Assembly (NCBI GenBank): GCA_023667285.1
Contig: JAMPAK010000001.1
Span: 964,324-1,028,323 of the forward strand
Direction of reading: 5' to 3'
DNA from: Muribaculaceae bacterium
GTDB taxonomy: Bacteria > Bacteroidota > Bacteroidia > Bacteroidales > Muribaculaceae
DNA length: 64,000 bases
Below, piece after piece: positions 13,453 to 64,000 of the stretch (positions are counted from its first letter, which is position 1; every line of letters starts with the position of its first letter). The notes below the pieces were generated by a model that saw nothing but the letters and a program-made list of their open reading frames with translations, did no database searches and was not told the DNA's origin. Both the position numbers and the translations under genes were made by a program.

Positions 13453-13490
13453 AAAAAACGGATCGTCGTGATGACGGTCCGTTTTTTGTT
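13453..13490. terminator. Terminator hairpin, copy 1 of a 38-bp repeat
   Basis: An A6 run, a 15-bp stem (one G-T pair) around a GTGAT loop, and a T6 run make this a strong terminator that would work on both strands. All 38 bases are identical to 15327-15364. No gene ends just upstream on the plus strand. In the minus direction it would terminate reading out of the lipoprotein-hicBA island. Confidence 0.75.
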
Positions 13491-13630
13491 ACACCCGTCC
13501 ATCCATGGACAATTTAGTCGAATGTCCTCATTTGTGATACACGTTGTCGCCGAATTGGCCACAGGAAATCCGACTTACAAATCCCCTTTTATGTACTTTT
13601 GCAGAATAAATAACTCATAATAAACATTCA

Positions 13631-14482
13631 ATGGAAAAGTTGATTAAACCACTCTTCCTATTCATCTTAACAATCTCAATATCGGCTGTCCTTATATCAT
13701 GCGGTGGCGATGAGGAAAAAGAAGATGAACCGGAAATGCCAAAGGTTAGCAAGACCCTGTTAACCAAAATAACGGGAGATGAAATCTTTCAGTTTTCCTA
13801 TAATCCTGATGGTTGCTTATCCAAAATATACGATGGAGACGAATTTACTATAACCATCTCTTACAATCCTATCCTCATCAATATAGATGGCAATCAAATC
13901 AACGTAACCACAAACAATGATGGTTATATAAAGGTCTTGCATGATGAATATTACGATACGTACACAACATATACCTACGACTCAGCAGGACATCTCACCA
14001 AATATGAAATGACTTTTTTACAAAGTCCGGGACAATATGAACAGAGTGAATACACCTGGGAAAACGATGTGATAACTCACGTTATACTCGAACGCTATGT
14101 CATGCAAGGATCTGAGAAAATTAGCAGATGGCAAATTTCTACTGATATAGAATATTCTGGAACAACAAACAATGGGGTAATAACCCAAATGATAGACAAT
14201 ATATTTGGCTACTATATCAGTGGGTATGATGCTCCATATTTAATAATGAGTGGACTTTTCGGAAAAATACCGTCTAAACTGCCATCTAAAATCAGTTCAT
14301 TTAACAATGTCATTGAAGCCGACGAATGCTCTTGGCATGATTATAATATCATCTATCGTACCAATAACGAAGGTAATCCCATCAGAGAAGAAATAATTTA
14401 TAATTATTCTAACTCATATGGTGGCTCATATGAGGAGCGCTACACCAACAATTACTCCTATGAAACTATTTGCCTTCCCTAG
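13631..14482 (+). CDS. Surface lipoprotein, DUF4595-like
   Basis: A 283-residue lipoprotein with the lipobox LISC (acylated Cys24), followed at once by GGDEEKEDE, an acidic stretch of the kind that sends Bacteroidetes lipoproteins to the outer surface. The body has repeated beta-strand pairs with YD/YN motifs (FSYNPDG, TYTYDSAGHL, YRTNNEGNP), resembling RHS/YD-like folds of DUF4595 proteins; the function is unknown. The gene is much richer in A and T than its neighbours, which suggests transfer. Its signal peptide closely resembles that of the lipoprotein at 51196-51594 (MEK start, Cys at 24, GGD next). Confidence 0.8.
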   Translation: MEKLIKPLFLFILTISISAVLISCGGDEEKEDEPEMPKVSKTLLTKITGDEIFQFSYNPDGCLSKIYDGDEFTITISYNPILINIDGNQINVTTNNDGYIKVLHDEYYDTYTTYTYDSAGHLTKYEMTFLQSPGQYEQSEYTWENDVITHVILERYVMQGSEKISRWQISTDIEYSGTTNNGVITQMIDNIFGYYISGYDAPYLIMSGLFGKIPSKLPSKISSFNNVIEADECSWHDYNIIYRTNNEGNPIREEIIYNYSNSYGGSYEERYTNNYSYETICLP

Positions 14483-14498
14483 GGCGAAATATCTGTAT

Positions 14499-14591
14499 AA
14501 CCGTCCGCGATAGCAGAGGGTTCCTAAACAAGATAGCTGCCCATGATGGGGTGGCTATCTTTTTTATGTCTAGATGCTAACGCGGACAGTT
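14499..14591 (+). terminator. Terminator nested in a longer inverted repeat
   Basis: The inner hairpin pairs AAGATAGC (14530-14537) with GCTATCTT (14554-14561) and is followed by a T run, giving a normal terminator for the lipoprotein gene. It sits inside a second pair of 17-base arms (14499-14515 and 14575-14591) that match at 15 of 17 positions. The outer arms are far apart and are not needed for termination; they may be a recombination or processing structure. Confidence 0.65.
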
Positions 14592-14637
14592 ATACTCAGG
14601 TGCATGGAGGATCTTACTGACACGGGAATTCCGTACT

Positions 14638-14988
14638 TTAGACTGGGGCAATATCATGCTCCACTTCTTTTCTGACGGCTCTATTGATTATTTCATTGAT
14701 TGTTGTGCCAGTCGCTTCAGCCAGAGCGGCAACGCGGCTATGGAGGTCGGAAGCCATACGCACTACAAATTTACCGCTGTATGGTTTAGCCGGCTCAATC
14801 CCTCGTTCCTTGCAACTTGCGAGGTAGTCATCAATCGCGCCCTCGAAATCCTCCTTAATCTCTTCAACGGTCATACCCTCGTAGGAAATGAGTGTGCCGT
14901 GGAGTCCTTGAACTTTTCCGAAAAGACAATTATCTTCATCGTTGAACTCCACAGAGCCGGTGTAACCTTTGTATTTCAAATATCCCAT
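14638..14988 (-). CDS. hicB: HicB-family antitoxin
   Basis: A 116-residue antitoxin of a type II HicAB pair. The N-terminal half is the degraded RNase-H-like HicB fold (YKGYTGSVEF, FGKVQGL, ISYEGMTVEEIKEDF). The C-terminal part is a ribbon-helix-helix DNA-binding motif (GKFVVRMASDLHSRVAALAE, about 69-88). It should bind and block HicA and repress their shared promoter. The gene starts 2 bp after hicA. Having toxin first and antitoxin second is the usual hicAB order. Confidence 0.9.
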   Translation of the reverse strand: MGYLKYKGYTGSVEFNDEDNCLFGKVQGLHGTLISYEGMTVEEIKEDFEGAIDDYLASCKERGIEPAKPYSGKFVVRMASDLHSRVAALAEATGTTINEIINRAVRKEVEHDIAPV

Positions 14989-14990
14989 AT

Positions 14991-15242
14991 TCAGACAAGT
15001 TTTAATGTTTGCAATGTTTCAATTATCTGCTTCACTTGATATGGCTTCAGCACACCAGAGGGATGCGGCTTGTGAAGCAATATCGTATCCTTACCTTTGG
15101 CATACTCAACTCTTGACCCCGACGTCTTTCCTTTGCTTCTCTCTTCAAAACCGAGAGCGCAAAGCAAAGTCCTTGCTTCATCATACGTGAAGTCCTTCGG
15201 ACGTGCCAAAAGTCTTGCGACCAGTTTCTCTTTCTTGCTCAT
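14991..15242 (-). CDS. hicA: HicA-family mRNA interferase toxin
   Basis: An 83-residue HicA-like toxin with a double-stranded-RNA-binding fold, expected to cleave mRNA independently of ribosomes. The catalytic histidine lies in LLHKPHPS, after the SGSRVEYAKGKD strand, and the C-terminal helix reads YQVKQIIETL. It is somewhat longer than the classic 55-65-residue HicA because of an N-terminal helix (KKEKLVARLLARPKDFTYDEA). Partner hicB follows directly. A palindromic operator lies in its promoter. Composition and position mark it as part of the same AT-rich island as the lipoprotein. Confidence 0.88.
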   Translation of the reverse strand: MSKKEKLVARLLARPKDFTYDEARTLLCALGFEERSKGKTSGSRVEYAKGKDTILLHKPHPSGVLKPYQVKQIIETLQTLKLV

Positions 15243-15257
15243 GCCAGTAAATCCTAT

Positions 15258-15290
15258 GCAAAGATACTAAATTTAGTATCAATAACAAAA
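15258..15290 (-). promoter_or_regulatory. hicAB promoter with palindromic operator
   Basis: On the minus strand, TTTTG (15286-15290) and TATCTTTGC (15258-15266) form a promoter. A perfect 18-bp palindrome, GATACTAAATTTAGTATC (15263-15280), fills the spacer and touches the -7 box. That is where the ribbon-helix-helix domain of HicB would be expected to bind and repress. Confidence 0.7.
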
Positions 15291-15326
15291 TTTTCCATGG
15301 AAAAGTTTCTTGCCCGTTATGTTTAC

Positions 15327-15364
15327 AAAAAACGGATCGTCGTGATGACGGTCCGTTTTTTGTT
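15327..15364. terminator. Terminator of the xyl-eda operon, copy 2 of the 38-bp repeat
   Basis: This copy lies 17 bp after the KDPG aldolase stop and is a natural terminator for that minus-strand operon. It is identical over 38 bases to 13453-13490, and similarity stops almost exactly at the ends of the A and T runs. Confidence 0.85.
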
Positions 15365-31132: not shown

Positions 31133-31160
31133 TCCATCCATCCCCCCAATTGACTGAACT

Positions 31161-33290: not shown

Positions 33291-33331
33291 CCTTCGGAGT
33301 GCCGGCCGCAGATTTTTCAACAGTCCATTCA

Positions 33332-33360
33332 TTGCAGTTCATAAAATTGTTGTACCTTTG
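33332..33360 (+). promoter_or_regulatory. Promoter of the Na/Pi cotransporter gene
   Basis: TTG (33332-33334) and TACCTTTG (33353-33360) are 18 bp apart. The start codon follows 26 bp later. This is a textbook Bacteroidetes promoter. Confidence 0.7.
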
Positions 33361-33386
33361 CGATACGTATCATTTTCAACTTTTTT

Positions 33387-35207: not shown

Positions 35208-35268
35208 CATAGGCTCCAGCTGACTCTCTCCATCCTTCATCTCTGAACCAACATCATCCCAACCATCT

Positions 35269-39200: not shown

Positions 39201-39610
39201 AGATATTGATAATCAACGGTCCCAATCTCAATATGCTGGGTACACGCGAACCTGACATCTATGGCTCGCGCTCGTTTGAATCTTATCTCGCCCAATTGCG
39301 CGAGATGCTCGACGGCGATGAGATAGAATACCGTCAGTCAAACCATGAGGGAGACATCATTGACTGGCTGCAGGATGCCGACGCCGATGGGATAATCCTC
39401 AATGCCGGAGCCTATACCCACACATCGCTCGCCATTGCCGATGCCATAGCCTCGATCTCCATACCTGTCATCGAGGTGCACATCTCCAATGTGGCCGCCC
39501 GTGAGCCAATCCGCCACACCTCACTGATAGCCCCCGTCTGCCAGGGAACCATAGCCGGATTCGGACTGAAATCCTATTTCCTTGCCGCACAGGCCATAAT
39601 CCTGGGCTGA
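39197..39610 (+). CDS. aroQ: 3-dehydroquinate dehydratase, type II
   Basis: Dehydrates 3-dehydroquinate to 3-dehydroshikimate in aromatic amino acid synthesis. The 137-residue protein has all type II motifs: INGPNLNMLGTREPDIYG with the catalytic Tyr, NAGAYTHTS, and EVHISN. The length is normal. It is coupled to the membrane protein upstream and lies 6 bp before the methyltransferase gene. Confidence 0.97.
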   Translation: MKILIINGPNLNMLGTREPDIYGSRSFESYLAQLREMLDGDEIEYRQSNHEGDIIDWLQDADADGIILNAGAYTHTSLAIADAIASISIPVIEVHISNVAAREPIRHTSLIAPVCQGTIAGFGLKSYFLAAQAIILG

Positions 39611-39616
39611 CACACT

Positions 39617-40243
39617 ATGACCCGCGACGAATATATCCTCAGCCACATCTCGCCCGAGCCTGCCCACCTTGAGCGTCTCTATCGCCACACCCACCTCACA
39701 TGCCTCTATCCGCGCATGTGCTCCGGTCATCACCAAGGTCGGGTGCTAGCGATGCTCACAGCCATGATAAAGCCCCGGAGAGTGCTTGAACTAGGCACCT
39801 TCACAGGCTACTCCGCCCTCTGCCTGGCCGAGAATCTCCCAGAGGGAGCAGAAGTCCACACAGTCGAGGTCGACGATGAGATGGCCGACAGCCTCGAGGA
39901 ACTCTTCGCCACATCGCCCGGGGGGGACAGAATAAGGCTCCACATAGGGGATGCACTCAAAATTGTCCCTGAGATTCCGGGCAAATGGGACATGGCCTAC
40001 ATAGACGCCAACAAACGCGACTATACGGCCTATCTCGACATGCTACTGCCACTGATGAGCCCAGGAGGTTTCATTCTGGCAGACAACACTCTGTGGGACG
40101 ACAAAGTGCTCGACACCACCACGAACCACGATGCTCAGACTCGTGGGCTCGATGAGTTCAACCGCGTGGCTGCATCCCATCCCCGACTCTCCACAGTGAT
40201 TCTCCCGCTCCGCGACGGACTGACGCTAATGCAGGTGAAATGA
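39617..40243 (+). CDS. Class I SAM-dependent O-methyltransferase
   Basis: A 208-residue methyltransferase of the cation-dependent catechol/caffeoyl-CoA type. SAM motif I is LELGTFTGYSALCLAE, and the metal-binding Asp is in YIDANKRDY; GGFILADNTLWDD follows. The natural substrate is not known for most bacterial members. It is the end of the run from the cotransporter to this gene. Confidence 0.9.
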   Translation: MTRDEYILSHISPEPAHLERLYRHTHLTCLYPRMCSGHHQGRVLAMLTAMIKPRRVLELGTFTGYSALCLAENLPEGAEVHTVEVDDEMADSLEELFATSPGGDRIRLHIGDALKIVPEIPGKWDMAYIDANKRDYTAYLDMLLPLMSPGGFILADNTLWDDKVLDTTTNHDAQTRGLDEFNRVAASHPRLSTVILPLRDGLTLMQVK

Positions 40244-40263
40244 GATTTTTAATAGCAAAATGA

Positions 40264-40293
40264 TTGCATTTTGCCAAAAATTGCGTATATTTG
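40264..40293 (+). promoter_or_regulatory. Promoter of the Lrp-family gene
   Basis: TTG (40264-40266) and TATATTTG (40286-40293) are 19 bp apart, and the chosen ATG lies 41 bp downstream. This promoter falls inside the longer open frame that begins at 40260 and so supports the shorter start. Confidence 0.7.
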
Positions 40294-40334
40294 CCACGCT
40301 TTTCACAATATTCATCAGTATCAGCAAAGCGGAT

Positions 40335-40802
40335 ATGGAAAAAATTGACAATCTCGACCGTAAAATCCTCGAAATTGTGATGCGCAATGCCCGAATCGCC
40401 TCCAAGGATGTCGCACAGGAGTGTGGAGTGTCGCGCGCAGCCATCCATCAGCGCATACAGCGGATGGTTGACCTGAACGTCATTACAGGCTCAGGCTACA
40501 ATGTGGATCCCAAGGTGCTTGGCTACACCACCTGCACATACATCGGGGTGAACCTTGAGAGAGGCGCCATGTATAGAGAGGTGGTTCCTGAGCTTGAGAA
40601 GATTCCCGAGGTGGTGGAATGCCACTTCACCACCGGCCCATACACGATGCTCATCAAGCTGTTTGCCCGCGACAACGAACATCTCATGGACCTCCTCAAC
40701 AACAAACTGCAGAATATCCCCGGGGTTGTCGGCACAGAGACCCTCATCTCCCTCGACCACTCCATTTCCCGTGTCCTCCCGGTCACATACGAAGAATCCT
40801 AA
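40335..40802 (+). CDS. Lrp/AsnC family transcriptional regulator
   Basis: A 155-residue leucine-responsive-type regulator. Residues 1-60 hold the helix-turn-helix (LDRKILEIVMRNARIASKDVA and VSRAAIHQRIQRM), and the rest is the RAM effector-binding domain ending in GVVGTETLISLDHSIS. The start at 40335 gives the usual MEKIDNLDRKIL opening; the frame extends 75 bp upstream but a promoter lies there. Targets are unknown; such proteins often sense amino acids. Confidence 0.93.
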   Translation: MEKIDNLDRKILEIVMRNARIASKDVAQECGVSRAAIHQRIQRMVDLNVITGSGYNVDPKVLGYTTCTYIGVNLERGAMYREVVPELEKIPEVVECHFTTGPYTMLIKLFARDNEHLMDLLNNKLQNIPGVVGTETLISLDHSISRVLPVTYEES

Positions 40803-40820
40803 TCCCACTTGACTCCAGTT

Positions 40821-41336
40821 ATGAAGAAGACAATCACGCTGATACTGATGCTCTGCTGCATCATGCTCCCCGTAGCCGCCCAGGAATATGTCATGGTCGG
40901 AAAGACCACCAACCTTTACTCCGAGCCATCCACCTCGACCCCCATGCTCAACCAGTGGGACGACACAATCGAACTTCTCCCCGGCATGGCCTTCGAGATG
41001 AAGGGAGAGAGCGGCGACTACTATATCATCGACATCCCCGGATGGAAGGGAGCCTATCTGCCTAAGTCGGCATGCGCCACACCTGAGGCGTTTGAGTTCA
41101 CTCCAGGGACATATCAGTTCAAATATGAGTCAGACTCATTCCCTGTCACCTTCACCCGGACAGCTGACGGGACATATGACATCACCGGCTACAGGCTCGA
41201 CGATCTCAAGGCCAAGGAAGTGCCCGGCAACATCATAGTAATCACTTGGGACGGAGAGCCTTATGGCAGCGTCACCACCCTTGGCGGTACAATGCGTGTG
41301 TGGCTCTACGACACCACAGTCCTCCCCTGGAACTGA
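40821..41336 (+). CDS. Secreted SH3-like protein
   Basis: A 171-residue protein with a signal peptide (MKKTITLILMLCCIML, cleaved after VAAQ). The next 60 residues resemble a bacterial SH3 domain (MVGKTTNLYSEPST, FEMKGESGDYYIIDIPGWKGAYLPKS). The remainder is beta-rich without a family I recognise. The start at 40821 is preferred over an ATG 12 bp upstream because it gives a clean signal peptide. It follows the Lrp-type gene by 18 bp. Confidence 0.8.
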   Translation: MKKTITLILMLCCIMLPVAAQEYVMVGKTTNLYSEPSTSTPMLNQWDDTIELLPGMAFEMKGESGDYYIIDIPGWKGAYLPKSACATPEAFEFTPGTYQFKYESDSFPVTFTRTADGTYDITGYRLDDLKAKEVPGNIIVITWDGEPYGSVTTLGGTMRVWLYDTTVLPWN

Positions 41337-41363
41337 CCCGGGGGCACCCCTGACTCGACTTCC

Positions 41364-41391
41364 GTCACCGCCTGCGGTTACAGTGCGGTGA
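41364..41391 (+). terminator. Hairpin after the SH3-like gene
   Basis: GTCACCGC pairs with GCGGTGAC over a 12-base loop, followed by ATTTCTCT. It is a possible terminator with a weak T run, placed between the SH3-like gene and the glmS promoter. Confidence 0.45.
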
Positions 41392-41431
41392 CATTTCTCT
41401 GCTTATATTAGGTTATCTCGCTGATTTTCGC

Positions 41432-41439
41432 TAACTTTG
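41432..41439 (+). promoter_or_regulatory. -7 box of glmS
   Basis: TAACTTTG lies 65 bp before the glmS start. A matching -33 TTTG is not evident. The leader is too short and has no sign of a glmS ribozyme. Confidence 0.45.
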
Positions 41440-41504
41440 CAGCCCCGATTCCTCAGTAAAACAAATTTTTTGATCCGTAACTAACAAAGATATACAACAA
41501 ACGA

Positions 41505-43352
41505 ATGTGTGGAATAGTAGGATATATAGGCTCACAAGGAGCCTATGACATACTTATACAGGGACTTAAGCGTCTCGAATATCGTGGATATGACAGTGCC
41601 GGCGTGGCGCTCGTCGACACTGACGGCTGCATGACTGTTCACAAGAGCCATGGCAAGGTGGCCAATCTTGAGCATACGGCTGCCGCCGGCAACATCAAGG
41701 GACAACTCGGCATTGCCCACACCCGCTGGGCCACCCACGGAGAGCCCAACGACATCAACGCCCATCCTCATGTGAGCCAGGGCGGTGAGATAGCGCTTGT
41801 CCACAACGGCACAATAGAGAACTATGCTGTGCTCAAGAAAGTGCTTGCCGACCATGGCTATTCATTCAAGTCTGACACAGACACCGAAGTGCTGGTCCAG
41901 CTCATCGAATACATCAAACTCACCACCTCTTGCTCTCTCCTTGAGGCCGTGCGCGAGGCACTCCTCCAAGTTGAGGGCGCATATGCCATCGCCGTCGTTG
42001 AGAAGGGCGACCCAGACACACTGATCGTGGCCCGCAAGAGCTCACCCCTTGTGATCGGCGTGGGCGAGAATGAGACATTCATCGCATCGGACGCCACCCC
42101 CATTGTGGGCTATACAGACCAGGTCATCTATCTTAAGGACAACGAGATTGCAAAGATAACCCGCAACGAGCCAATCCAGATCATATCCATTGACTCCAAC
42201 ACTCCATCCAAGATTGACATTCAGAAGCTCCAGCTCTCGCTGGCGCAGCTTGAGAAGGGGGGATATGACACCTTCATGCTCAAGGAGATTTTCGAGCAGC
42301 CCACCACCCTGCGCGACTGCCTGCGTGGCCGCATCACCGACGACGGCTCACGAGTGGTGCTCTCTGGTGTGGAACTCAATAAGGACAAGTTCCTCAACTG
42401 CTCACGCATCACCCTCGTGGCATGTGGCACCTCATGGCACGCAGCACTGATAGGCAAGCGCCTCATCCAGGATTTCTGCCGCATTCCCGTGCAGGTTGAG
42501 TATGCCTCGGAGTTCCGCTACAGCAACCCCGTGCTTGGCTCCAGCGACATCGTCATAGCCATCTCCCAGTCAGGCGAGACGGCCGACACTCTCGCCGCCA
42601 TCCAGATAGCCCGCGAGAAGGGCGCCTTTGTCTATGGTGTCTGCAATGTGGTGGGCGCATCCATCCCCCGCAACACTCATGCCGGAACCTACATCCATGT
42701 GGGCCCGGAGATAGGTGTGGCCTCCACAAAAGCCTTCACCGGCCAGGTGACCGTCCTCACGCTCATGGCGCTCGCCATCGGCCAGCTCCGCGGCTATCTC
42801 GATGAGAAGACTGTCAAGGACGTGGCCTCATCCCTGCTTAAGATGCCTGAGATTCTCGAGGAGACTCTGGAGTGTGACGCTGAGGTTCACAAACTCTCAC
42901 GCATATTCACATATGCCCACAACTTCCTCTATTTGGGCCGCGGCTACAACTATCCCACAGCCCTCGAGGGAGCGCTCAAACTCAAGGAAATCTCCTATAT
43001 ACACGCTGAGGGCTATCCCGCAGCCGAGATGAAACATGGACCCATCGCTCTTATCGACCATGAGATGCCCAGTGTCATCATCGCGCCGAGCGACTCGCTC
43101 TACGACAAGATCATCTCCAATGTCCAGCAGGTGAAGAGCCGCGGAGGCGCCGTCGTCGCCATCGTCAGCAAGGGGAACACCGCCATGTCTGACATAGCCG
43201 ACTTCTGCATCGAGATTCCCGAGGTGCCTGAGTGTCTCACACCCATTGTGGCCTCAGTGCCGCTGCAGCTCCTGGCTTACTATATCGCTGTCGGGAAGGG
43301 CAAGGATGTAGACCAGCCCCGCAATCTGGCAAAATCCGTGACTGTGGAGTAA
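41505..43352 (+). CDS. glmS: Glutamine--fructose-6-phosphate aminotransferase
   Basis: Makes glucosamine 6-phosphate, the first step to UDP-GlcNAc for peptidoglycan and lipopolysaccharide. The 615-residue protein begins MCGIVGYIGS, so the N-terminal nucleophile Cys is at position 2 after Met removal. HTRWATHGEP and HNGTIENY mark the glutaminase domain. Two SIS sugar-isomerase domains follow (VACGTSWHAA, SQSGETADTLAA, and ALEGALKLKEISYIHAEGYPAAEMKHGP). The C-terminus ends with QPRNLAKSVTVE, the standard ending. It meets the converging ABC gene with no space between the stop codons. Confidence 0.98.
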   Translation: MCGIVGYIGSQGAYDILIQGLKRLEYRGYDSAGVALVDTDGCMTVHKSHGKVANLEHTAAAGNIKGQLGIAHTRWATHGEPNDINAHPHVSQGGEIALVHNGTIENYAVLKKVLADHGYSFKSDTDTEVLVQLIEYIKLTTSCSLLEAVREALLQVEGAYAIAVVEKGDPDTLIVARKSSPLVIGVGENETFIASDATPIVGYTDQVIYLKDNEIAKITRNEPIQIISIDSNTPSKIDIQKLQLSLAQLEKGGYDTFMLKEIFEQPTTLRDCLRGRITDDGSRVVLSGVELNKDKFLNCSRITLVACGTSWHAALIGKRLIQDFCRIPVQVEYASEFRYSNPVLGSSDIVIAISQSGETADTLAAIQIAREKGAFVYGVCNVVGASIPRNTHAGTYIHVGPEIGVASTKAFTGQVTVLTLMALAIGQLRGYLDEKTVKDVASSLLKMPEILEETLECDAEVHKLSRIFTYAHNFLYLGRGYNYPTALEGALKLKEISYIHAEGYPAAEMKHGPIALIDHEMPSVIIAPSDSLYDKIISNVQQVKSRGGAVVAIVSKGNTAMSDIADFCIEIPEVPECLTPIVASVPLQLLAYYIAVGKGKDVDQPRNLAKSVTVE

Positions 43353-51828: not shown

Positions 51829-54800
51829 TTATTCAGCGACGGGTGAGGGCTCTGTGCCCCACTGCTGCTGTGCCAGACGGAGGTAGTTGTTGTAGCGCCA
51901 CTGTGCGTTGGCCTTGGCGGCTGCGAACAGTTCGGCTGCCTCTGCGGGATACTGCTTTGCTACGGAAGCATAGCGTACCTCGCCCTTGAGGAAGTCCTCA
52001 AACTTGTCCCAATCGGGAGCCTTTGAGTCGAGAGAGAAGGGGTTCTTGCCTTCCATCTCGAGGGCGGGGTTGTAGCGCCAGAGGTGCCAGTAGCCACACT
52101 CAACGGCTGCTGCCTGCTCTTCCTGTGCGTGGCCCATGCCCTTGCGGATGCCGTGGTTGATACAGGGTGAGTAAGCGATGATGAGTGAGGGACCGTCATA
52201 AGCCTCAGCCTCGCGGATGGCCTTGAGGGTCTGGGCATTGTCAGCACCCATGGCGATCTGGGCAACGTAAACGTAGCCGTAGGTTGATGCGATGAGGCCG
52301 AGGTCTTTCTTGCGGACACGCTTGCCGGCAGCGGCAAACTTGGCGATGGCGCCCAGAGGTGTAGCCTTGGATGACTGACCGCCGGTGTTTGAGTAGACCT
52401 CAGTGTCGAGCACGAGGACGTTGACATTCTTGTCAGAAGCGAGAACGTGGTCGAGACCGCCGAAGCCTATGTCGTAAGCGGCGCCGTCGCCGGCGATGAT
52501 CCACTGTGAGCGCTTGGCGATGTGCTCCTTGACTGAGAGGAGACCCTTGCAGACGTCGCAGCCGCAAGCCTCGCAGAGAGGAACGATGGCTGCTGCAACC
52601 TCCTTGGTGGCGGCAACGTCATTCTTGTTCTCAAGCCACTTGGTGGCGAGAGCCTTGATCTCTGCAGAGCATGAGGGGCAGTCGAGAGCCTTCTGCATGT
52701 AGTCGGCCACACGCTTCTGGAGTTTCTCGTGAGCGAGGCTCATGCCGAGACCGAACTCAGCGAAGTCCTCGAAGAGTGAGTTGGCCCATGCCACACCCTC
52801 GCCCTTGGCGTTCTTGGTGTAAGGAGTAGAGGGAACTGAGCCTGAGTAGATTGATGAGCAGCCTGTGGCGTTGGCAACGATCTCGTGGTCGCCGAAGAGC
52901 TGTGAGATGAGTTTCACATAAGGTGTCTCGCCGCAGCCTGAGCAAGCGCCTGAGAACTCGAAGAGGGGCTGTGCGAACTGTGAGTTCTTCACATTGGCCT
53001 TGATGTCGACGAGGTCCTGCTTGCTGGCCACCTTAGCCACGCAGTAGTCCCACTCCTTCTGAACGTCGAGCTGAGTCTCGAGAGGCTTCATTACGAGAGC
53101 CTTCACGCCCTTCTTGCCGGGGCAGACAGCCACACAGTTGGTGCAGCCGAGACAGTCGAGCACGTCGACGCTCTGGATGAAGCGCATGCCAGCGAAGCTC
53201 TTGCCCATTGCGGGGATAGTCTTGTCCTCGCCGAAGGGAGCTGCTGCCATCTCTGCAGCGTCGAGCACGAAGGGACGGATAGCGGCGTGAGGGCAGACAA
53301 ATGCACACTTGTTACACTGGATACAGTTCTCCTCGAGCCATTCGGGGACGAAGGCGGCTACGCCACGCTTCTCGTAGGCAGCGGTGCCCTGCTCCCAGGT
53401 GCCATCCTCGCGCCCCTTGAAGGCGCTGACAGTGAGGAGGTCGCCGTCCTGAGCGTTGATGGGGCGAACGATTTCGTTGATGAATGCGGGATCGTTGTTG
53501 GCAGCCTTGGCCTCCTCGGTGAGGTTGCTCCAAGCCTTGTCGACGGGGAGTTCCTTGTATTCGCCGCCGCGGTCGACAGCTGCATAGTTCTTGTCGACAA
53601 CGTCCTGTCCCTTCTTGCCGTAGCTCTTGACGATGAACTTCTTCATCTGCTCGACAGCGAGGTCGACGGGGATCACCTCTGTGATGCGGAAGAATGCGCT
53701 CTGGAGGATGGTGTTGGTGCGGTTGCCCAGGCCGATTTCCTGTGCAATCTTGGTGGCGTTGATGTAGTAAACGCGGATGTTGTGGTCAGCGAAATACTTC
53801 TTGATCTTGTTGGGGAGGTTCTTGGCCAGTTCCTCGCCTTCCCAGATGGTGTTGAGAAGGAATGTGCCGCCGTCGCGGAGACCGCGGGTGACGTCATACA
53901 TGTGGAGGTAAGCCTGAACGTGGCAAGCCACGAAGTTAGGTGTTGTCACCAGATAAGTGGAGCGGATGGGCGCGTCGCCGAAACGGAGGTGAGAGCAGGT
54001 GAAACCGCCTGACTTCTTTGAGTCGTAAGCGAAGTATGCCTGGCAATACTTGTTGGTGTTGTCGCCGATGATCTTCACTGAGTTCTTGTTTGCACCTACA
54101 GTACCGTCGGCACCGAGGCCATAGAACTTAGCCTCAAAAGTGCTCTCGTCGCCCAGAGCGATCTCCTCCTTCTGGGGGAGTGAGGTGAAGGTGACGTCGT
54201 CGACGATGCCCACTGTGAAGTGATCCTTGGGTGTGGGGAGAGCGAGGTTCTCGAACACTGCGAGAATCTGGGCAGGAGTGGTGTCCTTTGATGCGAGACC
54301 ATAGCGGCCACCCACGATGACGGGGGCGTCAGCCTGGCCATAGAAGCAGTCGCGTACGTCGAGATAGAGGGGCTCGCCGTTTGCTCCGGGTTCTTTTGTG
54401 CGGTCGAGGACTGCGATGCGCTTTGCAGTCTTGGGGACAGCTGCGAGGAAGTGCTTGGCAGAGAAGGGGCGATAGAGGTGAACGCTCACGAGACCGACCT
54501 TCTCACCCTTCTTGACGAGGTAGTCGATGGCCTCCTGGGCGGCCTGGGTGACAGAACCCATGGCGATGATGACGCGCTCTGCGTCAGCTGCGCCATAGTA
54601 GTTGAAGAGTTTGTATTCGCGGCCGGTGATGCGTGTGATTTCCTTCATGTAGTCCTCAACGATCTCAGGAACGCGGTTGTAGTATTCGTTGCATGACTCG
54701 CGGTGTTGGAAGAACACGTCGCCGTTCTCAGCCATGCCGCGTGCCACGGGCTTGCCGGGGTTGAGGCCGCGTGCGCGGAACTCGGCGAGAGCCTCCTGGT

Positions 54801-55392
54801 CAACGAGGGGAGCGAGATCGTCCTGGTCCATAGCCTCGATCTTCTGGATCTCGTGAGATGTGCGGAATCCGTCGAAGAAGTTGATGAAGGGGACACGTGA
54901 ACGGAGGGTTGAGAGGTGTGCTACACCTGCGAGGTCCATCACCTCCTGAACAGAACCCTCAGCCAGCATTGCGAAGCCTGTCTGGCGGCATGACATCACG
55001 TCCTGGTGGTCACCGAAGATTGAGAGGGCGTGGCTGGCGAGTGTACGTGCTGAAACATGGAAGACGCAGGGGAGAAGCTCGCCGGCAATCTTATACATGT
55101 TGGGGATCATCAGGAGAAGACCCTGTGAGGCGGTGTAGGTTGTGGTAAGAGCACCGGCCTGGAGAGAGCCGTGGACGGCACCGGCGGCGCCACCCTCACT
55201 CTGCATTTCCTGCACGAGGACAGTCTCGCCGAAGATGTTTTTGCGTCCGGCGGCGGCCCACTCGTCGACATACTCAGCCATTGTTGACGACGGGGTGATG
55301 GGGTAGATGGCCGCTACCTCTGAGAACATATAGCTCACATGGGCTGCAGCCTGGTTGCCATCACAAGTCAAGAATTTTTTTTCTTTACTCAT
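51829..55392 (-). CDS. nifJ: Pyruvate:ferredoxin (flavodoxin) oxidoreductase
   Basis: A 1187-residue single-chain enzyme that oxidises pyruvate to acetyl-CoA and CO2 and reduces ferredoxin, central to anaerobic energy metabolism. The order of domains is: POR N-terminal domain with YPITPSSTMAEYVDEW; the gamma domain (about 420-600); two 4Fe-4S motifs CIQCNKCAFVCPHAAI and CLGCTNCVAVCPGKKG (about 680-770); and the thiamine diphosphate domain with CSGCGETPY, GDGAAYDIGFGG and DTEVYSNTGGQSSKATP. All cysteines are present. The promoter is part of a repeated 62-bp terminator/promoter junction. Confidence 0.98.
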   Translation of the reverse strand: MSKEKKFLTCDGNQAAAHVSYMFSEVAAIYPITPSSTMAEYVDEWAAAGRKNIFGETVLVQEMQSEGGAAGAVHGSLQAGALTTTYTASQGLLLMIPNMYKIAGELLPCVFHVSARTLASHALSIFGDHQDVMSCRQTGFAMLAEGSVQEVMDLAGVAHLSTLRSRVPFINFFDGFRTSHEIQKIEAMDQDDLAPLVDQEALAEFRARGLNPGKPVARGMAENGDVFFQHRESCNEYYNRVPEIVEDYMKEITRITGREYKLFNYYGAADAERVIIAMGSVTQAAQEAIDYLVKKGEKVGLVSVHLYRPFSAKHFLAAVPKTAKRIAVLDRTKEPGANGEPLYLDVRDCFYGQADAPVIVGGRYGLASKDTTPAQILAVFENLALPTPKDHFTVGIVDDVTFTSLPQKEEIALGDESTFEAKFYGLGADGTVGANKNSVKIIGDNTNKYCQAYFAYDSKKSGGFTCSHLRFGDAPIRSTYLVTTPNFVACHVQAYLHMYDVTRGLRDGGTFLLNTIWEGEELAKNLPNKIKKYFADHNIRVYYINATKIAQEIGLGNRTNTILQSAFFRITEVIPVDLAVEQMKKFIVKSYGKKGQDVVDKNYAAVDRGGEYKELPVDKAWSNLTEEAKAANNDPAFINEIVRPINAQDGDLLTVSAFKGREDGTWEQGTAAYEKRGVAAFVPEWLEENCIQCNKCAFVCPHAAIRPFVLDAAEMAAAPFGEDKTIPAMGKSFAGMRFIQSVDVLDCLGCTNCVAVCPGKKGVKALVMKPLETQLDVQKEWDYCVAKVASKQDLVDIKANVKNSQFAQPLFEFSGACSGCGETPYVKLISQLFGDHEIVANATGCSSIYSGSVPSTPYTKNAKGEGVAWANSLFEDFAEFGLGMSLAHEKLQKRVADYMQKALDCPSCSAEIKALATKWLENKNDVAATKEVAAAIVPLCEACGCDVCKGLLSVKEHIAKRSQWIIAGDGAAYDIGFGGLDHVLASDKNVNVLVLDTEVYSNTGGQSSKATPLGAIAKFAAAGKRVRKKDLGLIASTYGYVYVAQIAMGADNAQTLKAIREAEAYDGPSLIIAYSPCINHGIRKGMGHAQEEQAAAVECGYWHLWRYNPALEMEGKNPFSLDSKAPDWDKFEDFLKGEVRYASVAKQYPAEAAELFAAAKANAQWRYNNYLRLAQQQWGTEPSPVAE

Positions 55393-55472
55393 AGTGATAT
55401 AATAAAATGTAGTCTGATTGTTCTTTGATTGTGTTGAATCAGGTGAGATTTGAGGTTGTTAAATACCACTTT

Positions 55473-55505
55473 GCAAAAATACAGATTTTTTTCAAAATCC
55501 CCAAA
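55473..55505 (-). promoter_or_regulatory. Promoter of the PFOR gene
   Basis: On the minus strand TTTG (55502-55505) and TATTTTTG (55474-55481) are 20 bp apart. The TTTG belongs to the repeated junction 55489-55550, so the -33 element is shared, base for base, with the promoter at 56278-56309. Confidence 0.65.
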
Positions 55506-55550
55506 AAAATCCGCATCATGGACCCGGGTGAGGTGATGATGCGGATGTTT
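55489..55550. repeat. 62-bp direct repeat, copy 1 (terminator plus -33 element)
   Basis: This stretch is identical over 62 bases to 56293-56354. It contains a hairpin (ATCCGCATCAT, 55509-55519, with ATGATGCGGAT, 55536-55546) followed on the minus strand by a T7 run, thus an intrinsic terminator for the gene at 55564-56235, and then the TTTG of the next promoter. Weaker similarity continues through the -7 box (TACAG and CAAA blocks, 55473-55488 against 56277-56292). Confidence 0.9.
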
Positions 55551-55563
55551 AAGGGGCGTAAAG

Positions 55564-56235
55564 TCAGTTTTGTCCCTCTTGGCGGCCTTTGGCGGAAAAT
55601 CGCTTGTTGTCTTCCTTCTGATATTGCTTTATTTTGTTTGACTCGATGCACTCAATCTTTCTGATGGTGACGGTTATTGTGTCGTTACATTCAACGGGCA
55701 CATTACCGAATATTCTTTTGAAGTTTTTTCCTTTTACCGTATAGGCTACTCGCGAACTGAGGCTTTTTAAAGTTTTGAGGCTTACGTCATGTAAAAATGA
55801 TTCCTGTATGCTGCATCCGGTGATCTCGAGTCCAAGGCCGATGGTGCGGAGGGCTTTGATGGAGTTGTTGTTGTCAGAGATTTCGTATTTGAAATTCAAG
55901 ACTAAAGTGTCCCCACAGCATTCAAGGCTGTCATAGTTGTCATTAACGTCTAATATGGGAGAGGGACAGAATGAATTGCTTATAGGGTTTAACCTCTTCG
56001 TTGAATCTGAACATGGATATAGATGTTTTTGGTATTCTGTCTCACCATTTTTTTGAGCATGTGAGTAATAGACAACTATGCCCTCTTCACTGTATTCCTC
56101 ATCGATTGATTCTCCTCTGAGTGATCCGGATACATAGTATACTCCCTCTATCCTAATGGAATTCTTTGTCTCACAATGGATAGAAATGGTAGAATACATG
56201 AATAACAAGAGAAATGTGAGTCGTAACATAATCAA
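55564..56235 (-). CDS. AT-rich secreted protein of unknown function
   Basis: A 223-residue protein with a signal peptide (LRLTFLLLFMYSTISIHC, about 4-21); the Cys could be a lipid site but the motif is poor. The body has short beta strands and four further cysteines, with acidic patches (SIDEEYSEEGIVVYY) and a strongly basic C-terminus (KGKNFKRIF, IKQYQKEDNKRFSAKGRQEG). I do not recognise a family. Its AT content and codon use differ sharply from the PFOR and peptidase genes on each side, and identical 62-bp junctions bracket it, so it is very likely a later insertion. Confidence 0.75.
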   Translation of the reverse strand: MIMLRLTFLLLFMYSTISIHCETKNSIRIEGVYYVSGSLRGESIDEEYSEEGIVVYYSHAQKNGETEYQKHLYPCSDSTKRLNPISNSFCPSPILDVNDNYDSLECCGDTLVLNFKYEISDNNNSIKALRTIGLGLEITGCSIQESFLHDVSLKTLKSLSSRVAYTVKGKNFKRIFGNVPVECNDTITVTIRKIECIESNKIKQYQKEDNKRFSAKGRQEGQN

Positions 56236-56277
56236 TCTGTCTCCTCGGCCTCATTGGCCTTGATTATTTCGTTTTTA

Positions 56278-56309
56278 CAAAGATACAGCGGATTTTCAAA
56301 ATCCCCAAA
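56278..56309 (-). promoter_or_regulatory. Promoter of the AT-rich secreted-protein gene
   Basis: TTTG (56306-56309) and TATCTTTG (56278-56285) on the minus strand are 20 bp apart, the same arrangement as in front of the PFOR gene. The -33 element lies in the repeat 56293-56354. Confidence 0.6.
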
Positions 56310-56354
56310 AAAATCCGCATCATGGACCCGGGTGAGGTGATGATGCGGATGTTT
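56293..56354. repeat. 62-bp direct repeat, copy 2 (terminator plus -33 element)
   Basis: Identical to 55489-55550. Here the hairpin and T run terminate the M3 peptidase gene, 24 bp after its stop, and the same bases supply the -33 element of the next promoter. As this copy directly follows a long, ordinary gene, it or its twin is the ancestral junction between the peptidase and PFOR genes. Confidence 0.9.
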
Positions 56355-56377: not shown

Positions 56378-58546
56378 TTATTTGCCGCCGGGGGTGTTGA
56401 TTTGCTCAGGCTTTTTGTCGTCCTTGAGGAGACCGCGGTTGCGGAGCAGGGCGTTGACAGAGGGCTTGTGGCCGCGGAACTTCACGAACAGTTCCATGGG
56501 GTCGTCGCTTCCACCCATCTCGAGGATGTTTTCCTTGAATGACTTGGCTGTGGCGGGGTCGAAGATTCCCTTTTCGGCGAATAGCTCGAAGCCGTCGGTG
56601 TCGAGGACCTCGGCCCAGAGATATGTGTAGTAGCCTGAGGCATAGCCGTCGCTGCCGAAGATGTGTTTGAAGTAGGGTGAGCGATAGCGATAGGCCACTT
56701 GTGAGGGCATGTTGAGTTTTGCGGCGATGTCTGCCTCAAACTTGTTGACGTCGATTGAGTCGCCGGGGGCTGGATTGTAGGCGCCCCAAGCGAGATCGAG
56801 GAGGGCTGCTCCGGCAAGCTCGGTGGTGGTGAAGCCCTGGTTGTGGGTCGAGGCGGCCTGGAGTTTGTTGATGAGCTCGGTTGGAATCACCTCTCCGGTC
56901 TTGTAGTGGAAGGCGAAGTCCTTGAGGAGCTCAGGCTCGAGTGCCCAGTGCTCGGTGATCTGAGAGGGGAGCTCGACAAAGTCGCGGTCGACGTTTGTGC
57001 CGCTCTGAGAGCGGAGTTTGGCGCGTGAGAGCATGCCGTGGAGGCCGTGGCCGAACTCATGGAACATTGTCTCGACCTCATCGATGGTGAGGAGGGCGGG
57101 TGTGTCAGCCGTGGGGCGTGTGAAGTTGCCGACGTTATAGATGATGGGGCGTCCCACCTTGCCGTCAGGGTCGGCATATGAGCCCTTGAATTCGCTCATC
57201 CAGGCTCCTTGGCGCTTGGAGGCGCGGGGGAAGTAGTCGGTCATGAACACTGCGATATGCTCGCCGGTGTTGGCGTCGGTGACGTCATAGACGTTGACCT
57301 CGGGGTTGTATTTAGGGGCGTCGGGCATCTCTGTGAACTTGACGCCATAGAGCTTCTCGGCGAGGGTGAAGATGCCTTTGCGGACATTGTCGAGCGAGAA
57401 GTAGGCGCTCACCTCATTCTCGTCGAGGTCGAACTTCTTAGCCCTCACCTTTTCGGCATAATAGTAGTAGTCCCAAGGCTCTATGGTTATGCCGGCGCCC
57501 TCGGAGTCAGCGAAGGTCTGCATCTCGGCCACTTCCTCTTTCACCTTGGCTGTGGCGGGTTCCCAGATCTGCATGAGGAGGTCTGTGGCAGCCTCGGGGG
57601 TCTTGGCCATGACGTTGTCGGTCATATATGAGGCGTAGTCCTTGAAGCCGAGCAGGCGGGCCTTCTCTGCGCGTGTGCGCACGATGTCGGCGATGACGGG
57701 GCGGTTGTCGTAGGGGGCCTCAGAGGCTAGAAGGGCGTAGGCATTGTACATGCGCTCGCGCAGGGCGCGGTTGTCGGCATATTTCAGCACCAGGAGGCGG
57801 CTGGGGGCATGGAGTGTGAAGACCCATTTGCCATCCTTGGAGCGCTGCTTGGCCTCGGAGGCTGCAGTGGCGACGATGCCGGCAGGGATTCCGGCGAGGT
57901 CGGCCTCGTTGTCGACGATGATCTCGCAGGCGTTTGTGGATGCGAGGAGGTTCTTGTTGAATGTGAGATAGAGGTCTGTGAGCCGTTTGTTGATGGCCTT
58001 GAGTTCCTCTTTCTTCTCGGGGGAGAGGAGGGCGCCGTTGCGTGTGAAGTTTTTGTATGACTCCTCGATGGCGCGTATCTGGGGCTTGTCCAGGCCGAGG
58101 GAGTTGCGGGTGTCATAGAGTTTCTTGACGCGCTCGAAGAGCTTGGAGTTCATCGAGATCTCGTCTGATGCCTCGGAGTAGAGGGGATATAGCACCTCGG
58201 AGATTTCCTGCATCTCGGGTGTGTTGTCGGTCTCGTCGAGCGAGGCAAACACGAGCATCACTTTGTTAACCAGCTCGCCAGACTTCTCCATGGCGAGGAT
58301 GGTATTGTCGAAGGTGGGGGCCTCAGGATTCTCGGCGATGGCCTTGATCTCGGCCTTCTGGATCTCTATGCCCTGGCGCATGGCCGGAAGGTAGTCGGCA
58401 TAGGTTATCTCACTGAATGGTGGAATCTCGTAGGGGGTGGTGTAGGGGACGGTGAAGGGATTGACCCTCTCTGCAGTCTGAGCGTTCATGGCCAGGGGGA
58501 TTGACAAGGCCGCGGCCGCGACCGTTGCTGTGATGATTGATTTCAT
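56378..58546 (-). CDS. M3 family metallopeptidase (Dcp/oligopeptidase A-like)
   Basis: A 722-residue zinc peptidase that cleaves short peptides. The HExxH motif is HEFGH at 496-500, followed by the second-zinc-ligand region with TELAGAALLDLAWG. A signal peptide (residues 1-22, ending MNAQ) suggests a periplasmic enzyme, whereas E. coli Dcp and OpdA lack one. SQITEHWALEPELL and the C-terminal SDGYASGYYTYLWAEVLDTDGFE are standard M3A motifs. It is probably used for peptide nutrition or turnover of exported protein fragments. Confidence 0.96.
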   Translation of the reverse strand: MKSIITATVAAAALSIPLAMNAQTAERVNPFTVPYTTPYEIPPFSEITYADYLPAMRQGIEIQKAEIKAIAENPEAPTFDNTILAMEKSGELVNKVMLVFASLDETDNTPEMQEISEVLYPLYSEASDEISMNSKLFERVKKLYDTRNSLGLDKPQIRAIEESYKNFTRNGALLSPEKKEELKAINKRLTDLYLTFNKNLLASTNACEIIVDNEADLAGIPAGIVATAASEAKQRSKDGKWVFTLHAPSRLLVLKYADNRALRERMYNAYALLASEAPYDNRPVIADIVRTRAEKARLLGFKDYASYMTDNVMAKTPEAATDLLMQIWEPATAKVKEEVAEMQTFADSEGAGITIEPWDYYYYAEKVRAKKFDLDENEVSAYFSLDNVRKGIFTLAEKLYGVKFTEMPDAPKYNPEVNVYDVTDANTGEHIAVFMTDYFPRASKRQGAWMSEFKGSYADPDGKVGRPIIYNVGNFTRPTADTPALLTIDEVETMFHEFGHGLHGMLSRAKLRSQSGTNVDRDFVELPSQITEHWALEPELLKDFAFHYKTGEVIPTELINKLQAASTHNQGFTTTELAGAALLDLAWGAYNPAPGDSIDVNKFEADIAAKLNMPSQVAYRYRSPYFKHIFGSDGYASGYYTYLWAEVLDTDGFELFAEKGIFDPATAKSFKENILEMGGSDDPMELFVKFRGHKPSVNALLRNRGLLKDDKKPEQINTPGGK

Positions 58547-61519: not shown

Positions 61520-61591
<72 letters not shown>

Positions 61592-61606
61592 CTAAACTAA
61601 ACTATG

Positions 61607-61646
61607 GAGATTGCGTCAAATAGATGCAATCTCTTTTCTTTTTTTG
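61607..61646 (+). terminator. Terminator of the tRNA gene
   Basis: GAGATTGC (61607-61614) pairs with GCAATCTC (61626-61633), followed by TTTTCTTTTTTT. Confidence 0.85.
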
Positions 61647-61664
61647 TTAAACCGCGACTTTCCC

Positions 61665-61695
61665 TTGGCTTTTTCAAAAACATCCCGTATCTTTG
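61665..61695 (+). promoter_or_regulatory. Promoter of the LRR protein gene
   Basis: TTG (61665-61667) and TATCTTTG (61688-61695) are 20 bp apart. The ATG is 117 bp further on, so the leader is long; I see no clear riboswitch in it. Confidence 0.6.
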
Positions 61696-61812
61696 CGAAA
61701 ATCAGTCATCCTCTATCTTTGTCATAAGATCATGGGACGAGGATTATAATCTTGTACTCACACTAGTAAGAATTGTTGATTGAATAGGTCACATTAACTG
61801 AAAGAATTAGCC

Positions 61813-63027
61813 ATGAATGAAATTTTAAGAACAGTCGTTGTAACTATTGTTGTGTCAATGTCGGCTATTTCGGCTATAGCAGCAAATGTCCCGATATGCT
61901 ATTTTGATAATGCCGAATATAAAATAATTCCTGAAGAAGGGTGTGCAGAACTCGAAGAGATTATGAAACCAAATCTCGTGCCTTCTGTCTTGGTGATTCC
62001 GGACTCCATTGACTATGGAGGAGCGAGCATACAATATCATGGGAGATATCCTGTGAAAAAAATCAAGAATATAAGGGGCTGCGAAAACCTGGAGACACTG
62101 ATTTTGCCGGAAGATGTCGTATCCTTCAATGATATTTCTGACAATGTTAAGTTGAAATCAATTAGTTTGCCGAAAAGTCTTACATCTCTCGGCACTATGA
62201 TGAATTGTAAAAGTTTGGAATCAATAATCATACCCGATGGAGTAGAAAGTATAGGCTATATGCGTTTTTATGGCTGTACAAGCCTTAAGGATGTCTCGCT
62301 GCCTGAGAATCTGAAGGAAATTGGATATCAAGCTTTCGCTAATTGTGACAGTCTCAGGTCTTTTACGATTCCGGGTTCGGTCTCCAAAGTGGGGAGTGGC
62401 ATATTTCAAGATTGCGATAAAATTGAAGTATTGACTTTTGAGGTATCAGACGCTGAGATTGAAGGGGGCAACATGCTGGTAGAAAATTGTCCAAATTTCA
62501 AAGAACTCAGGTTGGGTAGATTTGTGGAATTATCTTATCACGATGAGCATCATAATTGGATTCTTTCTTTTGGTGATTCTCCGGTAGACATCGTGATTTT
62601 AGATGAGGCTAATTTAAAATATGACGATTATTTCAGGTATCATTTCTCATATAACAAGCGTGTGCCTAATCTGACTTTGGGGAGGGATCTTAAGGTCTTT
62701 CCATCAGACTTGTCTACGCTCAGATTCCTCGAGACTCTGACTCTGAGGGATGTGACACCGCCGGCATGTCCACAATTTAAAGATTCGCAATACTCTACTG
62801 TGAAACTGATTGTCCCCGAGGGGAGCATTGAGGCATATCGTCAGGCCGAAGGCTGGAACAGATTCCTCACCATCCAGGAGACTGCTATCAATAATCCCGA
62901 TGCTATCTCAGACAAGACCGTCATCTCCAGGCATGACCTGCAGGGACGCCGTGTCAGGGACGACTATAGGGGCATCGTCATAGAGCGATACTCCGACGGT
63001 TCCGTCGGCAAAGTTCTGAAGAGGTGA
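61813..63027 (+). CDS. Secreted LRR_5 (BspA-like) protein with T9SS-like tail
   Basis: A 404-residue exported protein with a signal peptide (about 1-23, ending AIAA). At least six leucine-rich repeats of the BspA/LRR_5 type follow, for example LKSISLPKSLTSLG, LESIIIPDGVESIG, LKDVSLPENLKEIG and LRSFTIPGSVSKVG. The last 35 or so residues (HDLQGRRV, RGIVIERYSDGSVGKVLK) resemble the C-terminal sorting domain of T9SS cargo, which would tie it to the por/gld operon in this window. The first four-fifths are AT-rich and the last 200 bases GC-rich, suggesting a mosaic origin. BspA-like proteins often bind host or bacterial surfaces. Confidence 0.85.
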   Translation: MNEILRTVVVTIVVSMSAISAIAANVPICYFDNAEYKIIPEEGCAELEEIMKPNLVPSVLVIPDSIDYGGASIQYHGRYPVKKIKNIRGCENLETLILPEDVVSFNDISDNVKLKSISLPKSLTSLGTMMNCKSLESIIIPDGVESIGYMRFYGCTSLKDVSLPENLKEIGYQAFANCDSLRSFTIPGSVSKVGSGIFQDCDKIEVLTFEVSDAEIEGGNMLVENCPNFKELRLGRFVELSYHDEHHNWILSFGDSPVDIVILDEANLKYDDYFRYHFSYNKRVPNLTLGRDLKVFPSDLSTLRFLETLTLRDVTPPACPQFKDSQYSTVKLIVPEGSIEAYRQAEGWNRFLTIQETAINNPDAISDKTVISRHDLQGRRVRDDYRGIVIERYSDGSVGKVLKR

Positions 63028-63100
63028 GATTGTGATTGACCCGCGGTTAATTGCCTTGCCTCGAATGGTTGGCGTAGGGACCAATCCGCACAGAGGTCGC

Positions 63101-64000
63101 TTAGTTTTTCCTTAAGCGGCGGAGGATGTTCATGAAGTGGGTGTAGATGGGTGAGGGTGGGGCCACCATATCGGTGGCCATGATCTCGGCCATCGTCATG
63201 GGCTGCTCGGTGCCGAACTGGCCCGGGTAAAGCACTATGAGGTTGTGGTAAGGAAAATATTTCTGCAGGAAGTGGGGCACCTCCTCCATGTCTGAGTCGA
63301 AAGAGACTGAGGCACGGCGGGCGCTCACCACGATGAGCAAGTCGTCAGGCCCGACAGCGCTCTGCTTCAATACGAAGTCGTCGAAGCTCTCCACGCGCTC
63401 GAAAGAGGCGGTAATGCCTATCTTGCTCTGACGGAGTATGGTGCGTATCATAGGGGCGGTCTGATCCTCACACCAGAATGTCGCCGGGCGGCCGATGTGG
63501 CGACACAAGTTTCCTATGGCCTGGACCCAGCGGCGGAAGCCGGTCTCAAACTGAGCCTTCTTGGGGACAGCCACGAAGATGTGGGCGATGGTGGGGAGTG
63601 GGTTGAAGCAACGCGTGATGCACACCTGGCGGTTGGTGGACTGGAGCAGATGCTCAATCTTGCTGCCGAGGAAGGAGTCGATGATGGCGGTGCGCCGGTG
63701 CAGTCCAATGATGACCTCGGTGATGTCGCGCTCCTCCATAGTATTAAGGACGCCGGTGATGAAGTTTAGGTCGTAGCGCTCTATGGGGGTGAGCTCCACC
63801 TCGACTGTGGCGGCTGCGCGCTCGGCCACATCGAGCGAGTTGCGCGAGATGGAGCGCGATGACGCCGAATTGTCGTTGCGGACATGGAGCGCATAGAAGT
63901 CGCCGGGGATGGAGGAGTCCGGAAAGCGCATGGCCAGGGCCAGTTCCACAATTCCCGGGGCCGTGAGTGGGTTGGAAATGGCGATGAGTGTGCGCGGATG
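63101..64000 (-). CDS. C-terminal part of a cation:proton antiporter-like protein (5' end outside window)
   Basis: The frame is open from the window edge to the stop at 63101, giving 299 residues. It has two weakly similar halves of the universal-stress-protein type: one with TLIAISNP and ITEVIIGLHRRTAIIDSFLGSKIEHLL, the second with DDLLIVVSARRASVSF. Bacteroidetes cation:proton antiporters have such a cytoplasmic C-terminal region after their membrane domain. The GTG codon inside the frame at 63949 is not a real start because the family sequence continues upstream without a break. It ends in NILRRLRKN. Confidence 0.75.
   Translation of the reverse strand, partial: HPRTLIAISNPLTAPGIVELALAMRFPDSSIPGDFYALHVRNDNSASSRSISRNSLDVAERAAATVEVELTPIERYDLNFITGVLNTMEERDITEVIIGLHRRTAIIDSFLGSKIEHLLQSTNRQVCITRCFNPLPTIAHIFVAVPKKAQFETGFRRWVQAIGNLCRHIGRPATFWCEDQTAPMIRTILRQSKIGITASFERVESFDDFVLKQSAVGPDDLLIVVSARRASVSFDSDMEEVPHFLQKYFPYHNLIVLYPGQFGTEQPMTMAEIMATDMVAPPSPIYTHFMNILRRLRKN

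Follow-up and report, generated by a model that had tools for sequence, protein, structure and literature searches.

Identical copies of a terminator hairpin bracket an accessory gene upstream of PFOR, and two further inserts, in a Muribaculaceae genome: possible gene capture with duplication of the target

The stretch of DNA that we analyzed (the window) comprises 64,000 nucleotides of a Muribaculaceae bacterium. On its minus strand, a gene for an M3 family peptidase (56378..58546; Pfam Peptidase_M3) is followed by a gene of 223 aa that we call X (55564..56235) and then by the gene for pyruvate:ferredoxin (flavodoxin) oxidoreductase (PFOR; 51829..55392; Pfam POR_N, POR, EKR and others). We found that X is bracketed by a direct repeat whose maximal identical block is 62 bp long, with one copy on the PFOR side (55489..55550, minus strand) and the other on the M3 side (56293..56354, minus strand). 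These coordinates are exactly those of an earlier note on this DNA, which had read X as a gene inserted between two copies of a combined terminator/promoter junction. Extended without gaps, the repeat covers 55470-55550 and 56274-56354 (81 bp at 93% identity) and takes in the -7 region, where the same note had seen weaker similarity. Chance is excluded as the source of the 62-bp identity. When we searched the genome's own assembly with a 104-base query (E <= 0.001), the junction was present in two places only and there was no third copy, so the unit is not scattered.

Read on the minus strand, each junction copy consists of a hairpin of 14 pairs (one mismatch) with a 16-nt loop, then a T-run and then the start of a promoter; in the PFOR-side copy the hairpin lies at 55505-55550. 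In both copies, the -33 TTTG of the promoter that follows overlaps the T-run of the intrinsic terminator, and each copy thus holds a terminator together with the -33 element of the gene that follows, as had been proposed. The pattern TTTG-N20-TAnnTTTG, which is the promoter consensus of such bacteria, is found before PFOR (55474-55505), before X (56278-56309) and before the PFOR gene of G014, the best-matching congener. The presumed PFOR promoter (55474..55505, minus strand) reads TTTG-N20-TATTTTTG and has equal spacing in G014; the identical block, the hairpin and this promoter spacing are the evidence for the PFOR-side copy. The identical block stops within the promoter spacer, and the presumed promoter of X (56278..56309, minus strand) would be a hybrid in which the -33 element and part of the spacer come from the duplicated junction and the -7 box, at a spacing of 20, comes from the insert. 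The signals are intact on both sides of X. Both terminator loops contain an 8-base palindrome that may be due to chance (ACCCGGGT here, within 55505-55550, and ACGGCCGT in the PFOR junction of G014); apart from it, the PFOR terminator loops of the window and G014 differ. An exact 25-base loop pattern found nothing in the genome contig collection, from which close kin may be missing.

The open frame of X (55564-56235) begins with TTG, and the ATG two codons in, at 56229, is the likelier start. The N-terminus looks hydrophobic by eye, and searches of Pfam and NCBIfam gave no match to any known family. The GC content is 0.40 for X and 0.41 for its insert, as compared to 0.54 over 544 kb of the genome, which agrees with its description as AT-rich. 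The earlier note had considered the case that all relatives carry the gene, and none of 26 congeners has it. A single relative is present in the family (198 genomes, this one included), in G202, with 27% identity and an E value of 1e-10, and the 3.6 kb around that relative contain no direct repeats at the settings used. In the genome contig collection, 24 stretches fitted the pattern of X and none was confirmed. X as phage or plasmid cargo was considered and ruled out, as there was no match among plasmid or phage records.

To see the locus without X, we turned to the congeners. A DNA match to PFOR is present in 24 of 26, and the match passes the leader into the junction in G014 only, where window 51829-55520 corresponds to G014:C7:746434-750112. 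In G014 the PFOR junction is single and X is absent. The promoter is the same and the 3' arm of the hairpin nearly the same, and the loop and the 5' arm have diverged from those of the window. The 24 nt upstream of the G014 hairpin match the flank on the M3 side of our locus at 16 of 24 positions, ten of them in a row (binomial P about 2e-5), as compared to 7 of 24 for the flank on the X side; the outer flank of the M3-side copy thus resembles the flank that the PFOR junction had upstream in its ancestral state. Both outer flanks of the X arrangement appear to be ancestral to one junction. The single junction without X in G014, taken together with the fit of the flank on the M3 side, indicates that X was inserted and that the junction was duplicated, as the earlier note had held.

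One part of that note did not stand, namely that removal of X and one copy would restore an ordinary junction between M3 peptidase and PFOR. Both genes are clearly matched in 23 of 26 congeners and are neighbors in none of the 23: in 18 they lie on different contigs, and in the other 5 they share a contig, where 5.6 to 604 kb separate the matched pieces. Even the closest pair, in G015, has two open frames between the genes, which are convergent there. The empty site is that of PFOR with a different neighbor upstream, and because M3 lies outside the ancestral state, PFOR and its junction became neighbors of M3 within this lineage, with X entering before or after that change. The G014 counterpart of window 517-22754 starts directly behind PFOR, and here that stretch lies about 30-50 kb off: PFOR has changed its place between the two species. 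In G014, about 135-157 kb separate PFOR from the counterpart of window 22754-42000, and the 19 kb upstream of the G014 PFOR have only short, weak matches in this genome. We also considered a simple inversion involving PFOR and M3, which are 35 kb apart in G014, and the comparison of blocks does not fit it. The rearrangement that gave PFOR its new neighbor leaves room for a more complicated history. Elsewhere in the window, window 61520-63116 (an insert of about 1.5 kb) is absent from the collinear stretch of G014 and has no duplicated terminator; it holds a gene at 61813-63027, beside a tRNA, that by eye resembles leucine-rich-repeat secreted proteins.

We found that two other junctions of the same genome hold different genes between duplicated terminators, and the first of these lies in the same window. 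A terminator of 38 bp is present on the plus strand at 13453..13490, where it forms the 3' hairpin of a FopS-type sRNA (13424-13491; Rfam RF04319, 65 bits), and again at 15327..15364, where a KDPG/KHG aldolase gene (15381-16049, minus strand) adjoins it with its 3' end. The insert between the copies (13491..15326; GC 0.40) carries a DUF4595-like lipoprotein gene (13631-14482, plus strand; Pfam score below the cut-off) and, on the minus strand, a HicB/HicA pair (HicB 14638-14988, HicA 14991-15242). In G014, the FopS sequence passes one hairpin and is followed directly by the aldolase gene, with no insert. G018 and G024 have the same arrangement as G014, with a single hairpin, and the hairpins have diverged. 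Among the matches listed, none spans the second insert in any of the 26 congeners. The FopS sRNA family is described as highly conserved within Bacteroidaceae in the part of PMC11697453 that we draw on, and several congeners have more than one match to the FopS sequence among the matches listed.

The third case is at the era locus, where a terminator of 36 bp is present as a direct repeat at G000:C11:1348427-1348462 and 1351753-1351788. Between the copies are two genes for WG-repeat lipoproteins (GC 0.45), with a terminator copy 52 nt behind the stop codon of a WG gene; era flanks the insert on one side and a gene that looks permease-like from its sequence on the other. G014 lacks this insert: its matches to one flank and to the other stop 110 bp from each other, and the insertion itself is plain. 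The G014 era spacer has no hairpin of the 36-bp terminator sequence, so a single-copy ancestor is seen at PFOR and FopS only. The sequence behind era varies from species to species (22 congener loci).

To place these three loci among all repeats of this kind, we surveyed 944 kb of the genome (43%) for direct repeats with a minimum length of 26-28 bp and copies no more than 8-10 kb from each other, with a hairpin filter in one scan. Before counting, we removed arrays of dispersed repeats, pairs of tRNAs, paralogous genes and repeats of coding appearance. Three repeat pairs remained (62, 38 and 36 bp), and all three are intrinsic terminators, located within one 1.8 Mb contig. We also noted arrays of GC-rich repeats of roughly 100 bp (core CATGGCCGGGGCTACG) at approximately G000:C11:842084-842600 and 881985-890800. 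The same 944 kb contain 279 predicted terminators on both strands, with a two-way hairpin counted twice. Among 573 near pairs of terminators (100-8000 bp apart), eight rows were alike, representing the three loci and a tandem repeat at 1456550, which looked coding and was left out. Among 38,168 far pairs, two were alike (Fisher P about 3e-5 for 3 near vs 2 far).

When we scanned 1.68 Mb of four congeners (480 kb of G014 and 400 kb each of G016, G015 and G012), there were 0 accepted cases. G014, G016 and G015 had both the repeat scan and the terminator scan and G012 the repeat scan alone, and in the congeners only repeats with a hairpin were listed. Left uncounted in G014 were a 30-bp hairpin pair 5.3 kb apart (776032), since its motif seems to be a dispersed one (G014 has 10 far pairs alike), and a pair within a longer duplication (831835). 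A pair 142 bp apart in G016 (1183169) and several repeats in G012 that we took to be dispersed were likewise left out. The contrast between this genome and the four congeners is weak (P about 0.05), and with no accepted case in the four, a habit of the whole genus is unsupported. What is new here is the recurrence, that is, three AT-rich accessory inserts between identical terminators in one genome.

We next compared the edges of the duplicated blocks with the position of the hairpin. Each block comprises a complete hairpin and T-run. The 5' edge of the block, taken in the direction of termination, lies 0, 0 and 1 nt from the hairpin base for the 62, 38 and 36 bp blocks, and the 3' edge lies 16, 3 and 6 nt past the hairpin. 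Selection for a terminator alone would allow the upstream edge to lie anywhere, and that it lies at the hairpin base every time points to the hairpin as a guide; this rule comes from three cases and was recognized in hindsight. No two of the three terminators are alike, the length of the duplication varies (62, 38 and 36 bp) and, comparing 25 nt per end by eye, we saw no motif common to the ends of the three inserts.

None of the three inserts contains a transposase or recombinase gene: X, the only coding gene of its insert, has no Pfam match, which bears out the earlier remark that no such enzyme is visible there, and the others encode the lipoprotein with HicBA and the WG-repeat proteins. 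The genome has five matches to tyrosine recombinases (PF00589), each of which either lies on a contig without inserts or keeps a distance of at least about 29 kb from every insert. Serine recombinases (PF00239) gave no match. The match nearest to X (G000:C11:1049625, about 29 kb away) is an open frame of 310 aa, a Xer-like size. Inserts without a recombinase, ends that are unlike by eye and blocks of unequal length make a transposase unlikely. Since the terminators differ among the three loci and the hairpins at PFOR and FopS are native there, the second copy most likely came from the target and not from the insert. A mobile unit bringing its own terminator was considered and is rejected for PFOR and FopS, where G014 has the hairpins without the inserts.

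What we observed directly is that the blocks are duplicated, that empty sites exist, that the inserts are foreign in composition and that the blocks have an edge at the base of the hairpin. The reading that we favor, with modest confidence, is that X was captured at the terminator before PFOR with a target duplication bounded by the hairpin, and with it, at the same confidence, that X is a horizontally acquired, foreign-looking gene; the two further inserts were probably made likewise at other, unrelated terminators. Such a capture would duplicate the terminator hairpin, the T-run and the overlapping -33 element; one copy would then follow the upstream gene and lend X its -33 element, and the other would close X and leave the PFOR promoter whole. 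The hairpin would guide the event, most likely through polymerase switching at a stalled or broken hairpin, or through a cut across both of its bases with fill-in. By the first route, a replication or repair fork would stall at the hairpin, switch to incoming DNA and re-enter at the hairpin base, and the hairpin would be copied twice. By the second, the extruded hairpin would be cut across both bases and filled in on both sides. Among the points against this reading is that, in its loop and 5' arm, the PFOR hairpin of G014 is unlike the one here.

X and the WG genes are oriented like the terminators and have one of them behind their stop codon (13 nt behind it for X), so the duplicate can close the new transcript. 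This geometry, in which the genes are closed by the downstream terminator copy, is present in two of the three inserts; the HicBA insert differs and ends at the promoter side of HicBA. To judge from sequence, the other copy still serves the old neighbor at the X and WG loci.

Which alternatives could give the same arrangement? In the first, X arrived together with one copy of the terminator on a circle or circularized fragment, which was integrated by one homologous crossover within the terminator. Such a crossover would yield terminator, X, terminator as its exact product, and X could leave in the same way. There is a precedent in E. coli, described in passages of PMC3240628: of 60 Lac- clones tested for one-ended capture, 56 instead gave the PCR product expected from a duplication, and sequencing of 14 clones showed duplications of 109-950 bp that were read as a single crossover of a circle. 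The incoming DNA must, however, carry a perfect copy of the terminator, and the PFOR terminator is found only in its two copies. Three cases with three different terminators would moreover have their origin shifted elsewhere and left unexplained, and 36-62 bp is short for ordinary recombination. We therefore think this route unlikely.

An integrative-element remnant, in which the repeats are the attL and attR of a terminator-targeting integrase whose gene was lost or acts from elsewhere, is improbable. Integrative mobilizable elements with tyrosine integrases do sit at gene ends between direct repeats, and one repeat preserves the end of the gene, according to a passage of PMC5704250. Against this, three unlike targets would require three specificities, and the inserts lack a recombinase, in a genome without serine recombinases and with its nearest tyrosine recombinase match about 29 kb from X.

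The arrangement could also be old, the relatives having lost the genes by deletion between the repeats, which happens easily and would leave a single copy, the state that G014 has at PFOR and FopS. This too has little probability in our judgment, given that the congeners lack X, that none of their listed matches spans the second insert, that the FopS site has a single hairpin in three congeners and that the copies here are 100% identical while the terminators differ between species. Nor did tandem duplication, one origin raised in the earlier note, hold up, as X has no long likeness to its flanks; the cassette reading of that note survives in the insertion, the duplicated junction and the intact signals, and falls for the ancestral M3-PFOR adjacency and the tandem duplication.

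Least probable is an assembly artefact or a mixture of strains joined at the repeat: the assembly has 22 contigs and such a repeat is a branching point in an assembly graph, but repeats of 36-62 bp are shorter than usual sequencing reads, the outer flanks are ancestral at PFOR and FopS, and three loci are alike in one 1.8 Mb contig.

The question addressed by these data is how single accessory genes enter bacterial genomes with no transposon or integrase in sight. Taken together, the three loci suggest that a genome can take up new genes next to a DNA hairpin, which is then left in two copies, with no visible mobile-element enzyme. A further, tentative idea, which we hold to be doubtful, is that terminator hairpins are physical capture sites, where a fork or break at an extruded hairpin takes up DNA and copies the hairpin twice. 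If so, a terminator would insulate each captured gene from its arrival on, half a promoter would come with it wherever the terminator overlaps one, and gene cassettes could be built without a dedicated recombinase. Duplicated terminators bounded by the hairpin around inserts are a specific signature that can be searched for in any collection of close strain pairs. Should this signature hold, terminators would be part of the cause, beyond neutral landing places, and the duplication would explain why the neighbors of such insertions are undisturbed. We found no description of terminator duplication with gene capture in the open-licence literature.

Several known systems resemble these loci in part. 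In a transposon or IS insertion with target-site duplication, the insert is likewise bracketed by direct copies of the target; here, in contrast, the inserts have no transposase and no shared ends were seen by eye (25 nt per end), and the duplication, which is constant in length for those elements, is unequal (36-62 bp) and consists of a terminator in every case. Integrative elements whose att repeats lie at gene ends are alike in that a repeat keeps the neighbor's gene end intact, but our inserts are without an integrase and the three unlike terminators have no common att core. An integron gene cassette consists of a gene followed by an attC hairpin, a folded palindrome, and is captured one at a time. 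The order of gene and folded palindrome and the single capture are shared with our loci; the difference is that the hairpins at PFOR and FopS derive from the target and not from the cassette. Homology-facilitated illegitimate recombination also captures foreign DNA without a mobile-element enzyme; its outcome, as stated in the part of PMC3240628 used here, is generally an insertion coupled to a deletion, whereas here the insertion comes with a duplication. The descriptive class that fits is insertion with target duplication, as seen from a single-copy empty site and both outer flanks at PFOR (in G014) and at FopS (in G014, G018 and G024).
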